DNA of 64,000 nt. It comes from Natranaeroarchaeum sulfidigenes (GTDB lineage Archaea; Halobacteriota; Halobacteria; Halobacteriales; Natronoarchaeaceae). Below the pieces are notes generated by a model. It did not search any database and was not told the DNA's origin. It saw nothing but the letters and a program-made list of their open reading frames with translations. The position numbers were made by a program, and so were the translations under genes. Positions 23,003 through 29,205 of the stretch are shown here, piece by piece; the first letter of the stretch is position 1; each line of letters begins with the position of its first letter. The stretch is from assembly GCF_017094485.1 (NCBI RefSeq), contig NZ_CP064786.1, positions 1,860,001 to 1,924,000 of the forward strand. Direction: 5' to 3'.

Positions 23003-23107
23003 GGAAGGGTAGCTCAGTGGTAGAGCGCCACCGTCCGGTGAGGGGTTTCCCTTGCCGACGCGGTGAATACTCAAAGGCTTCGCGTGGTTCAAATCCCGCC
23101 CCTTCCG
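23003..23107 (+). pseudogene. tRNA-like gene with 5' half intact and aberrant 3' half
   Basis: Acceptor GGAAGGG/CCCTTCC pairs perfectly (23003-23009 with 23100-23106), and the D-arm GCTCAGTGGTAGAGC is normal. After CCACCGTCCGGTG there is a 35-40 nt insert. The 3' end has a TTCAAAT loop, but its 5' stem half is CGTGG instead of the expected GCGGG, so the T-stem cannot form. Read with U33, the anticodon would be CCG (Arg), possibly with an intron at 37/38, but the anticodon stem is also imperfect. The stretch before the T-loop (CTTCGCGTGGTTC) matches the repeat modules behind tRNA-Arg. It is more likely a tRNA rebuilt or damaged by repeat insertion than a working gene. Confidence 0.5.
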
Positions 23108-23220
23108 CTTTTGCGACGAGTAGACACGAGGAGCAAAGCGTACACTGAGGGATTTGAGCAGATCAGTCGCGCGCAGCGAAGCGAGCACGTCTGAGCGAGT
23201 TCAAATCCCGCCCCTTCCGC
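23108..23220 (+). repeat. tRNA-tail repeat module, locus 1
   Basis: A 112-bp module ends in a second copy (23199-23220) of the tRNA 3' segment found at 23087-23108 (GTTCAAATCC..CCTTCCGC, 22 bp). Inside, in order, are an imperfect hairpin CTTTTGC/GCAAAG, an inverted T-loop GGGATTTGA (23149-23157), and a 43-base loop with GCGCAGCGAAGCGAG and ACGTCT. The same plan occurs behind tRNA-Arg at 25.9 kb. Confidence 0.8.
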
Positions 23221-25363: not shown

Positions 25364-25498
25364 GCCGTGCGTTGTCGGGTTTCCGTCAAATCAGTTCCGT
25401 TTGGGGGAGAACGCATGGAGGAGCGGCGATCCGGTATCGTGTCTCTGAAATCCCATGCAAAAAGCCTATAATCGCGAGCGAGCAAGCAACGTATAGAG

Positions 25499-25795
25499 AT
25501 GGCAGTTGAAATCACACCGCTGTTCGCTGTGCCCGGCGGGATGGAGCTAGTGGTGGTCTTGCTCATCGCAGTGCTTTTGTTCGGTGCAAACAAGATCCCG
25601 AAACTTGCTCGGTCGACCGGCGAAGCGATGGGGGAGTTCCAGAAGGGCCGAGAAGAAGTGGAACAGGAACTACAGGAAATTCGAGAAGGAGCCGATGTCG
25701 ACACGGACATCGATACGGATATCGACACCGACCTCGACACTGACACGACCCCGTCGAGCACCGACACCGAAACTGAAACCGAGACGAATAACTAG
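25499..25795 (+). CDS. tatA: Twin-arginine translocase subunit TatA
   Basis: This 98-residue protein has one N-terminal membrane helix (about 14-30, GMELVVVLLIAVLLFG), then the FG-hinge and amphipathic helix NKIPKLARSTGEAMGEF of TatA/E proteins. The C-terminal tail is a low-complexity series of Asp-Thr repeats. TatA forms the pore through which folded Tat substrates leave, the main export route in haloarchaea. It lies directly upstream of tRNA-Arg. Confidence 0.93.
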   Translation: MAVEITPLFAVPGGMELVVVLLIAVLLFGANKIPKLARSTGEAMGEFQKGREEVEQELQEIREGADVDTDIDTDIDTDLDTDTTPSSTDTETETETNN

Positions 25796-25822
25796 TCGCC
25801 TTTTTATCGAGTCATGTTGCCT

Positions 25823-25895
25823 GGGCGTGTGGCCTAGCGGATAGGGCGAAAGGTTCCTAACCTTTCGATCGCGGGTTCGAATCCCGTCACGCCCG
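25823..25895 (+). tRNA. tRNA-Arg (CCU)
   Basis: This 73-nt gene has acceptor GGGCGTG/CACGCCC and discriminator G. The D-arm is CCTAGCGGATAGGG. The anticodon stem AAAGG/CCTTT has loop TTCCTAA (anticodon CCT). The T-arm GCGGG-TTCGAAT-CCCGT is intact. CCA is not encoded. Its 3' 22 bases recur three more times downstream, the last copy decayed. Confidence 0.97.
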
Positions 25896-26004
25896 TTCTC
25901 GTACCGAGCGCTAGTGAGGTCGAGAACGAACCGCAGGGATTCGAAGTACGGATCGAGGGGGCGGAGCGACTGACGTTCCGGTGGTTCGAATCCCGTCACG
26001 CCCG
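25896..26004 (+). repeat. tRNA-tail repeat module, locus 2 copy 1
   Basis: Together with the tRNA 3' end, the first 72 bases (25874-25945) recur exactly at 25983-26054. The order is hairpin GTTCTCG/CGAGAAC (25895-25927), inverted T-loop GGGATTCGAA (25936-25945), a 39-base loop, and a copy of the tRNA-Arg 3' end (25983-26004). Confidence 0.9.
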
Positions 26005-26117
26005 TTCTCGTACCGAGCGCTAGTGAGGTCGAGAACGAACCGCAGGGATTCGAATCAGGGAGGTCACGCGCAGCGAAGCGAGGACGTCTTCATGTGGTTC
26101 GAATCCCGTCACGCCCG
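26005..26117 (+). repeat. tRNA-tail repeat module, locus 2 copy 2
   Basis: It begins as an exact copy of module 1. Its 43-base loop after the inverted T-loop (26045-26054) contains CGCGCAGCGAAGCGAG and ACGTCTTC, nearly identical to the loop behind the 23.0-kb tRNA-like locus. It ends in tRNA-Arg 3' copy 26096-26117. Confidence 0.9.
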
Positions 26118-26244
26118 TCATCGACTGCGAGTTATAGCGAGTAGTAATGACGACACCTCGGGACTCGACCCCGAGAGACACAGCCCGCACAATAGGTGAA
26201 GCGTACGAGCACGATTGTCTCCGCTCGGATCCATGCCACGCCCG
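26118..26244 (+). repeat. Decayed tRNA-tail repeat module, locus 2 copy 3
   Basis: The same plan is recognisable: CGAG-rich hairpin region, inverted T-loop variant GGGACTCGA (inside hairpin CTCGGG/CCCGAG), a GTGAAGCGTACGAGCACG loop, and the tail CCACGCCCG. The sequence has drifted. From 26245 to the next start codon there is AT-rich promoter-type sequence. Confidence 0.6.
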
Positions 26245-26400
26245 TCTCGTGCAACGACGTCAGAGCGAGCCATAGCCCAGTGAGTGAACGCTGTTCTGAC
26301 AGTGTGAACTGGATATTTCATTTATGATTTTAGACATGTGTAAGACATTACATTCAGAGGCAGCTTTATTGTAGATTGTTTCATCGTTTTGTTCGTTACA

Positions 26401-29205
26401 ATGTCGAACGCTAACATACGGGGTGGAATCCTGTTCTCGCTGTACGAGCAGTATATCGGAGAACCGAAATCGAAAAAGCAGGTATACGGCTACTGGCTGT
26501 TCATTATCGGGTACGTGCTCGGGTTCGCGGGGATCCTGTTGTTCGTCACCGAACTCTGGCAGGCGGGCGATCCGAACTGGTTCCTGCGTGGCGCGGGTGT
26601 CTCACTCGCGGCGGGTGGGTTGCCGCTCGCGATGTTCGGGATCGTGTTACTCCTGCCAGTGCGCGAACGAGGTATCCACGCCACACTCGTCGGACTGGGT
26701 GTCACGTTTATTGGTGTGATCGCATTCAATCTCGCTTATCCCAGTAACTGGTGGGTTGACTCCGCGGCCGACTACAGTGGTGTTGTCGTCGCGATTTATT
26801 CCGTGGGACTGGCCATCGTCGCGGGGGTGATCGTACTGGTGCCGATCCTCACCGGGAAAGAGGGGATGCTCGTGGAAGACGAGATGCAGGGGCTCGACGC
26901 ACACCCACCTGTGCTGGTCGGCCAGAAGGACCACGGAACCCTGTTCAGCGTGTTCCGCCGCCCCGGATCGGAGTGGACGTGGCGAGCCGTCCAGCAAAGT
27001 GCACTCGCTACCGGGATAGACTCGCTGGAGAGCCGAACGGCCGCAAAGGACGCAGTTGATACCCTGAAAGCGAAAGTCAACTCGGCGCGGTTGCTCGAGA
27101 TAACGACAGCAGCGTTTCGGCTATACGAGAACGAACAGGGGGTCTGGCGGTGGGTGCTGATGCGGGACGACGGGAGCGTCATTGCGGAGAGCGTCGATCA
27201 GTACGATAGCCGTGACGAGGCCGAAGACGCAGTCAGTTTCACGAAGGATCGGGGACCCGATGCACCGTTGCTGGATATCGAGGGGGCAGCCTTCGACGTC
27301 TATCGTGACGGCGATGACTGGCGCTGGCGACTCCTCGATGAGGAACGGACGGTGATGGCCGAGAGTCCGAACCGACACGCCGACGAGGCAAGCGCGGAGG
27401 ACGCTATCGCATCTGTAACGGACCGTATCGGAGATGCTCGAGTGCTGGCATTCGACTCGTTCGGCGTCGAACTGTTCGAGGATGGCGGAGAGTGGTGCTG
27501 GCGTCTACTGGATACAGCTGATGAAGAGGTCGCACGCAGTGCTGTCGGGTTCGACTCGCGGCGCAACGCAGAGACGGGTGCCGACGAGGTACTCGATCAG
27601 TTCGGATCAGCGACCGTCCTGCATAGCGGCCAGCCAGGGATCGAAGTGTATCAGTCCGGATCGGACTGGCAATGGCGGCTACTGGATGATGACGACGAGA
27701 CGGTTGCAAGAAGCCCGGGTGGAGCCGGCGATCGGTCGGACGTACAGCAGGGAGCAGAGCGGCTGTGTGCGGAGGCTGCTGACGCAAAGACCGTTCAGTT
27801 TGACGGTGCGGAGTACGAGATCTACCGTGCAAACGAGGGATGGAACTGGCGGTTTGTCACCGACGAGCGTGAGGTCATCGCCGACCACACGCAGGGATAC
27901 GAGACCATCGAGGACGCCGAAGAGGCGATTGAACGTGTCAGAGAACAGGCCAGCGAGGCCGACCTGTTGGAGTTCGAGACGGCAGCGTTCCAGCAGTACC
28001 AGACCGTCACCGGCGACTGGCGCTGGCGGCTGATCGACGAGGACGGCGCAGTGCTCGCCGATAGCGGGCAGGCCTATGACTCCAAAGACGACGCGGGCAA
28101 TGCTATGGTGACGCTAAAAGAGAAAGCGCCGGACGCAGAACTGCTAGAGATCGAAACCGCGGCGTTCGAGCTGTTCCAGAACGACAACGATAGCTGGGGC
28201 TGGCGGCTGATCGACGAGGGTGGTCGGCTGGTCGCGGAGGGCGCAAAGAGCCATGCGACAAAGCAAGGCGCGCGAGAGGCCATGGACTACCTCGTGGACA
28301 ACTCACCCGGTGCGGATGTAGAATCGATCGACGGAGCGATCTTCGAGGTCTTCAGTGAGGGGAGCGACGACTGGCAATGGCGCTGTCTCTACGAGGACAA
28401 CACCATCATTGCCGAGAGTCCAGAGGGATACGCGACCCGAGACGATGCGGAAGGAGCTATCGAGCGCGTCAAACCGAACGCCACGAGTGCAGCGATTCAT
28501 ACGATCGAGGGGCTGGCGTTCGAGATCGATCCGGATTCGGAGTATCGGTGGGACGTGCTCGATCAGCAGCGCGAGACGGTTGTGGTCGGTGGACGCAGCT
28601 ACGAGGAGGCCGAAGCTGCCGAATCAGCGATCGAGGAGCTGAAAGCTAACGCCGGTGACGCGACGACGTTCACGATAGAGGACGCAGCAATCAGGCTCCA
28701 GCAATCGGAGAGCGGCTGGAGCTGGGAACTGATCGACCGTGACCGTACTGTGTATGCCCGGAGTGGTGGACAGTACGACACACGGGAGGTGGTGCTGGAC
28801 ACTATCGAGGAGCTACAGGTGCTCGCCCCGGATGCGGAGTTCCTCGAATTTGAAACGGCTGGTATCGAAATCGTCGAAGCTGACGACGGCTGGCGCTGGC
28901 AACTCCTGAACGGCGACGAGGACGTCGTCGCGGCGAGCGCAACCGTCTACGAGGAACGATCCGCGCTCATCGATGCTATCGATGACATCAGAGACCTACT
29001 GGTCAGTGCGAGCATCCTGGAGATAGACGATCCGACCTTCGAGTTGCACCAACAGGAGGGCGGCTGGATCTGGCGACTCGTCGACGAGAACGGGATCGGT
29101 CTCGCCGAAAGTGCCGAAAGCTATCCAACTCGCTCGGCGGCTCGTGAGCGGATGAATACGCTCAAAGAGCAGGCCCCGGACGGCTCACTGTCGGTCGCCG
29201 GATAG
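26401..29205 (+). CDS. Membrane protein with about 13 DUF1508-like repeats
   Basis: This 934-residue protein has four membrane helices at its N-terminus (about 30-150). About 13 tandem units of 57-59 residues follow, from about residue 170 to the end. Each has the pattern AAFELYxxxxxWRWRLIDEDG, a Glu/Ser-rich strand, and a helix such as YDSRDDAEDAIERVK. This is the DUF1508/YegP fold, usually found as one or two copies per protein. The repeat domain faces the cytoplasm if the short N-terminus is inside. The unit spacing is nearly constant, so it could form a rod. The function is unknown. ATG 26401 follows an AT-rich promoter region. Confidence 0.82.
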   Translation: MSNANIRGGILFSLYEQYIGEPKSKKQVYGYWLFIIGYVLGFAGILLFVTELWQAGDPNWFLRGAGVSLAAGGLPLAMFGIVLLLPVRERGIHATLVGLGVTFIGVIAFNLAYPSNWWVDSAADYSGVVVAIYSVGLAIVAGVIVLVPILTGKEGMLVEDEMQGLDAHPPVLVGQKDHGTLFSVFRRPGSEWTWRAVQQSALATGIDSLESRTAAKDAVDTLKAKVNSARLLEITTAAFRLYENEQGVWRWVLMRDDGSVIAESVDQYDSRDEAEDAVSFTKDRGPDAPLLDIEGAAFDVYRDGDDWRWRLLDEERTVMAESPNRHADEASAEDAIASVTDRIGDARVLAFDSFGVELFEDGGEWCWRLLDTADEEVARSAVGFDSRRNAETGADEVLDQFGSATVLHSGQPGIEVYQSGSDWQWRLLDDDDETVARSPGGAGDRSDVQQGAERLCAEAADAKTVQFDGAEYEIYRANEGWNWRFVTDEREVIADHTQGYETIEDAEEAIERVREQASEADLLEFETAAFQQYQTVTGDWRWRLIDEDGAVLADSGQAYDSKDDAGNAMVTLKEKAPDAELLEIETAAFELFQNDNDSWGWRLIDEGGRLVAEGAKSHATKQGAREAMDYLVDNSPGADVESIDGAIFEVFSEGSDDWQWRCLYEDNTIIAESPEGYATRDDAEGAIERVKPNATSAAIHTIEGLAFEIDPDSEYRWDVLDQQRETVVVGGRSYEEAEAAESAIEELKANAGDATTFTIEDAAIRLQQSESGWSWELIDRDRTVYARSGGQYDTREVVLDTIEELQVLAPDAEFLEFETAGIEIVEADDGWRWQLLNGDEDVVAASATVYEERSALIDAIDDIRDLLVSASILEIDDPTFELHQQEGGWIWRLVDENGIGLAESAESYPTRSAARERMNTLKEQAPDGSLSVAG

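Follow-up and report, generated by a model that had tools for sequence, protein, structure and literature searches.

Among the systems closest to the repeats described here are those that follow the tyrT gene of E. coli (rttR/RtT, tpr), which are tandem 178-bp units, each ending in the exact last 19 nt of the tRNA. REP/BIME arrays (RAYT transposases) are built of alternating palindromes with two kinds of spacer, form mosaic arrays and have strand-specific hairpins. In Haloquadratum, the small mobile repeats SMR-A and the PATEs are non-coding, ~110 bp long and inserted at palindromes, and their mobilisation has been termed enigmatic; SMR-A have fixed inverted repeats, target palindromes of the IS605 type and cause no duplication on insertion (PMC3119063).

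The locus analyzed here lies in a window of 64,000 nt (the whole stretch of DNA analyzed) from the haloarchaeon Natranaeroarchaeum sulfidigenes. An intact tRNA-Arg(CCT) gene (25822..25896, plus strand; called by ARAGORN and scoring 66.5 bits with Rfam RF00005) is followed by three units, which are 109, 113 and 127 bp long. The earlier note, made from the sequence of the window, had described such modules behind an intact tRNA-Arg, and both ARAGORN and the coordinates bear it out. Positions 54-73 of the gene (25876-25895, plus strand) are the 20-nt sequence TTCGAATCCCGTCACGCCCG, which is found exactly at three sites, the other two being 25985-26004 and 26098-26117. Unit 1 (25896..26004, plus strand) consists of a first hairpin, an inverted T-loop, a core and a direct copy of 54-73, in that order. 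Its first hairpin (25895..25927, plus strand) is formed by GTTCTCG and CGAGAAC and contains tandem G.A pairs (CCGAGC..GTGAGG). The inverted T-loop, GGGATTCGAA, is the complement of tRNA positions 54-63 (25936..25945, minus strand). The core (25946..25984, plus strand) is of the GTACGG / TTCCGGTGG box class with G53 as its last base, and an exact direct copy of 54-73 completes the unit (25985..26004, plus strand). Unit 2 (26005..26117, plus strand) has a GTTCTCG...CGAGAAC hairpin at 26004-26036, the inverted T-loop GGGATTCGAA at 26045..26054 (minus strand), the core TCAGGGAGGTCACGCGCAGCGAAGCGAGGACGTCTTCATGTGG at 26055..26097 (plus strand), which belongs to the commonest core family, and an exact direct copy of 54-73 at 26098..26117 (plus strand). 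The short hairpin and the inverted T-loop that had been read inside the modules are confirmed in both of these units. Unit 3 (26118..26244, plus strand) is decayed, as had been supposed, and keeps only two short remnants, GGGACTCGAC at 26160-26169 and CCATGCCACGCCCG at 26231-26244. An exact copy of 54-73 closes units 1 and 2, and CCATGCCACGCCCG closes unit 3. The run of 72 identical bases said to be shared by the first two modules is real (25874-25945) and lies within a repeat 79 nt long that is 96% identical. Units 1 and 2 have different cores and thus have only the tail, the first hairpin and the inverted T-loop in common. An Rfam search of 25400-26700 with E values up to 1 matched nothing except the tRNA and gave no RtT match. 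There was no support for regarding the G.A hairpins as a repeat common in the genome, none being found elsewhere in the window.

When the 3.04-Mb genome was searched at the DNA level with the Arg(CCT) array, eight further matches were obtained, seven of them behind other tRNA genes. The eighth, at 23166 in the window, lies behind the tRNA gene at 23003-23107, whose single unit (23108..23219, plus strand) has an inverted T-loop of its own, GGGATTTGAGC, at 23149-23159 and a core at 23164-23193. We then read the 700 nt on the 3′ side of 44 tRNA genes and found that most carry units whose inverted T-loop matches their own tRNA. A strict rule gave 34 units at 24 of the 44 genes; once Gln, Tyr, Phe, Ser(CGA) and Val(GAC) were added by eye, 29 of 45 tRNA genes had units. 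The units have a median length of 118 bp (range 95-162) and carry no genes. Exact pairs of inverted and direct T-loops occur 15 times in the chromosome. Since all 15 sit directly behind tRNA genes and a reversed control gave none in any genome, the pairing is not due to chance.

Several other arrangements were seen in the same genome. No units follow four tRNA genes that are apparently co-transcribed with downstream sequence (C1:197054, 1876209, 658882 and 661422); two of these are copies in an identical, duplicated context resembling an rRNA spacer and two directly precede open frames. The Tyr and Phe units (among them those from C1:2623250 onward) have no inverted T-loop; their hairpins are preceded by a partial tRNA copy that begins close to the anticodon arm and stops at position 53. 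A second type of repeat is found behind the tRNAs that carry units. It consists of a G.A hairpin formed by the other strand (GTTCGCAAACAAACCGCGTTTGCTCAC is one example) and, after it, a tRNA-end copy that is shorter and starts at ~60-61. These repeats are tandem as well, with three copies at Arg-TCT, and lie downstream of C1:278804 (Arg-TCT), 2711794 and 2710312 (both Asp), 1417212 and 2669109.

In 132 units compared with their tRNAs, the direct copy starts sharply at position 53, where identity is 0.99 (0.33 at 51), and its end is at 73, where identity is 0.80 and beyond which it drops to 0.52 (position 74). For the inverted copy the match is strong across 54-62 and has faded by 66. Together the inverted copies gave 1322 matches to their own tRNAs, compared with a maximum of 1133 in 2000 permutations of the tRNAs. 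When gaps were allowed, the inverted copy was seen to continue over 64-73 (z = 5 relative to permuted tRNAs, z = -2 for the control), and in many units this extension to 73 is weak. Compensatory changes were counted in 56 units with the same core, aligned without gaps. The T-arm pairs had 56 two-sided changes and the inner stem pairs 38, compared with maxima of 33 and 18, respectively, after a shuffling that leaves shared ancestry in. At position 57 the pair is C-G in 28 of these units and T-A in 27. When units were folded as circles with DNA parameters, 54-63 paired with the inverted copy in 53 of 60, and z was below -2 in 49 of 60. In a tRNA-His unit, pairing ran from the T-loop through acceptor strand and trailer and on into the first hairpin. 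Because the inverted copy extends past the T-loop and the circular folds agree with this, we read the unit as a predicted dumbbell in which a duplex of the tRNA tail carries hairpin 1 at its 73 end and the core hairpin at its 54 end.

The hairpins are strongly biased to one strand. Tandem G.A pairs were found on the tRNA strand in 98 of 130 first hairpins, compared with 6 on the other strand, and in 54 of 119 cores, again compared with 6. Among 152 apical loops there were 40 GNA triloops and no GNRA loop. GNA loops give extraordinarily stable mini-hairpins in DNA, GCGAAGC being an example (PMC4686876). Loops of this kind on strand-biased hairpins lean towards DNA rather than RNA as the working form.

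We also compared the arrays with those of one sister species; a difference between the two may be a gain in one or a loss in the other. The tRNA-Gly(CCC) array differs by a clean extra unit of 104 bp. At Arg(CCT), unit 1, the one proximal to the tRNA, is absent as such from the sister species, while unit 2 has an orthologous unit there (normalised score 0.80). For unit 3, the sister-species unit with a matching first hairpin has an intact tail and a different core. Of the first two modules, unit 2 is thus the one kept in the sister species and unit 1 is species-specific. At Glu(TTC) and Met(CAT) it is the sister species that carries an extra tRNA-proximal unit. First hairpins and cores reassort between units. 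Thus, in Haloferax, first hairpins have been exchanged between the units at Ser(CGA) with the cores in place, and in Halorubrum one Leu(TAA) array contains two alternating types of first hairpin and four cores. The Gly, Ser and Met arrays of another congeneric pair of genomes behave likewise. The earlier note had missed this reassortment, as well as the clean whole-unit differences between sister species, the strand specificity of the hairpins and the reach of the inverted copy toward the acceptor end that gives the dumbbell.

That note had proposed a search behind haloarchaeal tRNA genes, and the modules extend far beyond one locus. Of 116 Halobacteriales genomes, 105 have the inverted/direct T-loop pattern, and these cover 41 of the 44 genera; the reversed control gave none. 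Since an exact T-loop pattern was required, the count for any one genome is a minimum, and diverged units may be present where it is 0. In a narrower comparison, 24 of 26 Halobacteriales had the pattern, as did none of 122 Halobacteriota outside that order. The pattern serves as a proxy, and its agreement with tRNA positions was checked in the genomes that were read. The commonest core, TCGCGCRCAGCGAAGCGAGCACGTC, occurs in 93 stretches, nearly all labelled as haloarchaeal and representing many genera. When 82 core matches were read, 69 lay on the same strand as a tRNA and 51-338 nt 3′ of it; most of the remainder were near contig ends or behind tRNAs missed by the scanner. With a slightly relaxed core, 94 of 107 matches in the loci that were read lay no more than 700 nt behind a tRNA. 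This core adjoins 28 isoacceptors (ARAGORN calls) and was never found behind a tRNA on the opposite strand. One contig labelled as Bacteroidetes (PXTT01000074.1, MAG QS_9_68_14) has a core unit behind tRNA-Val that is nearly identical to a haloarchaeal one; the contig is probably misbinned.

The core pattern had no match in IMG/VR, and nothing relevant was matched in phage records. The generic inverted/direct T-loop matches in IMG/VR that were inspected were not haloarchaeal units and were mostly like bacterial tRNA-Ser. Plasmids gave a single core match in 72,556 records. In a Haloarcula plasmid, a hairpin and core split a tRNA-Cys-like gene exactly at 53/54. The split gene belongs to a dense cluster of tRNA-like genes (Haloarcula halophila, NZ_CP119561.1, 237157-243214). 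Such clusters, with up to 25 calls in 6 kb, are shared by haloarchaeal plasmids and adjoin a gene for a TROVE-domain (Ro60-like) protein.

These results support the earlier view of the modules as a repeat element not yet described, with ends copied from the adjoining tRNA: it occurs throughout the genome and the order, its interior is conserved and its arms match the tRNA. As to mechanism, we give about even chances to the reading that these are tandem arrays of non-coding palindromic elements anchored to the tRNA genes of Halobacteriales, which are joined and lost at 53/54, likely by way of folded single-stranded DNA and a putative recombinase. Units would join and leave within the T-loop, between positions 53 and 54. 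An incoming unit would bring a fresh 54-73 and displace the old copy to its own distal end, much as happens when an element integrates at a tRNA attachment site; because the unit supplies 54-73, the tRNA gene would remain intact. The polarity of the arrays would reflect insertion adjoining the tRNA. The substrate may be a folded, possibly circular, single-stranded unit which, like an integron attC site, would be joined by a recombinase, here a putative one that recognizes the T-loop. Folded single-stranded DNA is the likeliest form since the hairpins fold well on one strand only and the folded strand yields a double-stranded T-loop site. In favour of this reading are the sharp limits of the direct copies, the inverted copies matched to their own tRNA, the covarying stems, the strand bias of the hairpins, the clean whole-unit differences beside the tRNA, the reassortment, the plasmid gene split at 53/54 and the presence of one core family beside 28 isoacceptors. 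Against this mechanism, no recombinase could be tied to the units: the genome has ~10 tyrosine recombinase genes, and integrases adjoin only three of its tRNA genes, all of which lack an immediately following unit. The units also carry no genes and are missing from IMG/VR and, but for that one match, from plasmids, and the Tyr- and Phe-type units have a partial tRNA copy in place of the inverted T-loop. In addition, the reassortment could be explained by homologous recombination or by the short-repeat deletion reported for haloarchaea (PMC3119063).

The chief rival explanation, which we consider rather doubtful, extends this last point and needs no dedicated enzyme. Template switching, short-repeat deletion and unequal homologous recombination would act at the hairpin-rich, heavily transcribed ends of tRNA genes, and hairpins would spread passively via the T-loop. 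The exchange of hairpins between units is as expected from such events, and deletion between short direct repeats is established in haloarchaea (PMC3119063). Moreover, T-loop positions 54-62 are nearly constant across most tRNAs and therefore provide homology between tRNA loci. However, the joins at 53/54 and 73 are sharp across isoacceptors, which calls for a site-specific step. Nor would this explanation readily place one core family beside 28 isoacceptors, or account for new units that bring cores otherwise missing at that locus.

It is less probable still that the units are selected for a role as RNA, being transcribed as structured trailers, terminators or decoys in tRNA 3′ processing. 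The fixed orientation relative to the tRNA, the location of the hairpins on the tRNA strand and the compensatory changes in the stems would all fit such a role, as would the lack of units behind the tRNAs that seem to be co-transcribed with downstream sequence. In contrast, the inverted copy would pair with the T-arm of its own transcript, the triloops are GNA and not GNRA, and Rfam recognizes nothing but the tRNA. Furthermore, units are lacking at about one-third of tRNA genes and from some genomes altogether, and the arrays turn over between sister species.

A genuine integrated element is present at tRNA-Tyr. It is ~4.7 kb long (C1:2229361 to ~2234040), lies between the tRNA and its units and encodes a tyrosine recombinase of 340 aa; its duplicated site is TCGACTTGTCCCCCG, ~39-53 of the tRNA. 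As an autonomous parent of the units it was rejected, given that duplicated site and a core hairpin outside the element. That the units are ordinary attL/attR scars of integrated viruses or plasmids is very improbable. Integration does usually leave a directly repeated tRNA 3′ end, and the tRNA-Tyr element is a genuine case, but that element duplicates a different stretch, IMG/VR has no units and plasmids almost none, and arrays with tRNA-matched inverted copies stand at most tRNA genes of nearly all genomes, their conserved, covarying interiors refuting the scar account as a full explanation. An origin of the units from mature tRNA by reverse transcription is disfavoured because the copies stop at 73 and have no CCA.

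No description of these arrays was found in the literature searched, in which subscription journals are thinly covered, and they are apparently a widespread and previously undescribed kind of tiny, tRNA-anchored element. If the preferred reading, that of elements joined and lost at 53/54, is true, a lively element whose sequence tracks its host gene has been overlooked on most tRNA genes of an archaeal order. This would bear on tRNA genes as hot spots for mobile DNA, explain odd sequences behind them and offer a natural archaeal system for recombination of folded single-stranded DNA. Annotation pipelines for haloarchaea and searches for attachment sites would have to allow for the units.

Each of the known systems shares some features with these arrays. 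Scars of the attL/attR type bound an element with its own integrase and have no conserved interior; the units, gene-free and with a conserved core, differ on both counts. SMR-A elements resemble the units in size and in being non-coding, whereas the arms of the units are tRNA-specific and 54-73 is duplicated. With REP/BIME arrays the likeness is one of layout, the haloarchaeal order of direct tail, hairpin 1, inverted tail, core and direct tail being likewise an alternation with two spacers. REP copies, however, all share a fixed sequence with 5′ GTAG, while the haloarchaeal arms follow the local tRNA and are tied to tRNA genes. Like the units, integron attC sites fold preferentially on one strand by means of an imperfect inverted repeat, and they have a variable hairpin core and form tandem arrays of one orientation behind a fixed site. 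The haloarchaeal box, GTTCRAA, departs from the attC boxes GTTRRRY / RYYYAAC and agrees only at the G^TT start. Unlike integron cassettes, the units have no ORF and no known integron integrase, their arms follow the tRNA and 20 bp rebuild the target gene.

The best parallel is provided by the E. coli tyrT repeats. In E. coli K-12 (NC_000913, 1286700-1287245), each repeat also has an inverted copy of the tail, GGGGAAGGAT, which can pair with the direct copy, ATCCTTCCCC, so that inverted and direct tails are laid out as in the haloarchaeal units. At this one E. coli locus examined, the repeats differ in that they include the CCA, start at position 59 rather than 54, encode a small protein and have a longer interior. 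In a second E. coli strain, the paired tRNA-Tyr genes are not followed by repeats of the tyrT type. The shared layout may reflect common descent or convergence. We tentatively entertain a more specific proposal, in which the units would be tRNA-anchored cassettes, ~100-nt single-stranded DNA dumbbells that mimic a double-stranded att site of the tRNA, insert at 53/54 by means of a T-loop recombinase, rebuild the tRNA and adapt their arms to each new tRNA, with the tyrT repeats as their bacterial counterpart. Such dumbbells would rank among the smallest mobile elements known, and the old puzzle of the tyrT repeats would gain a wider context.
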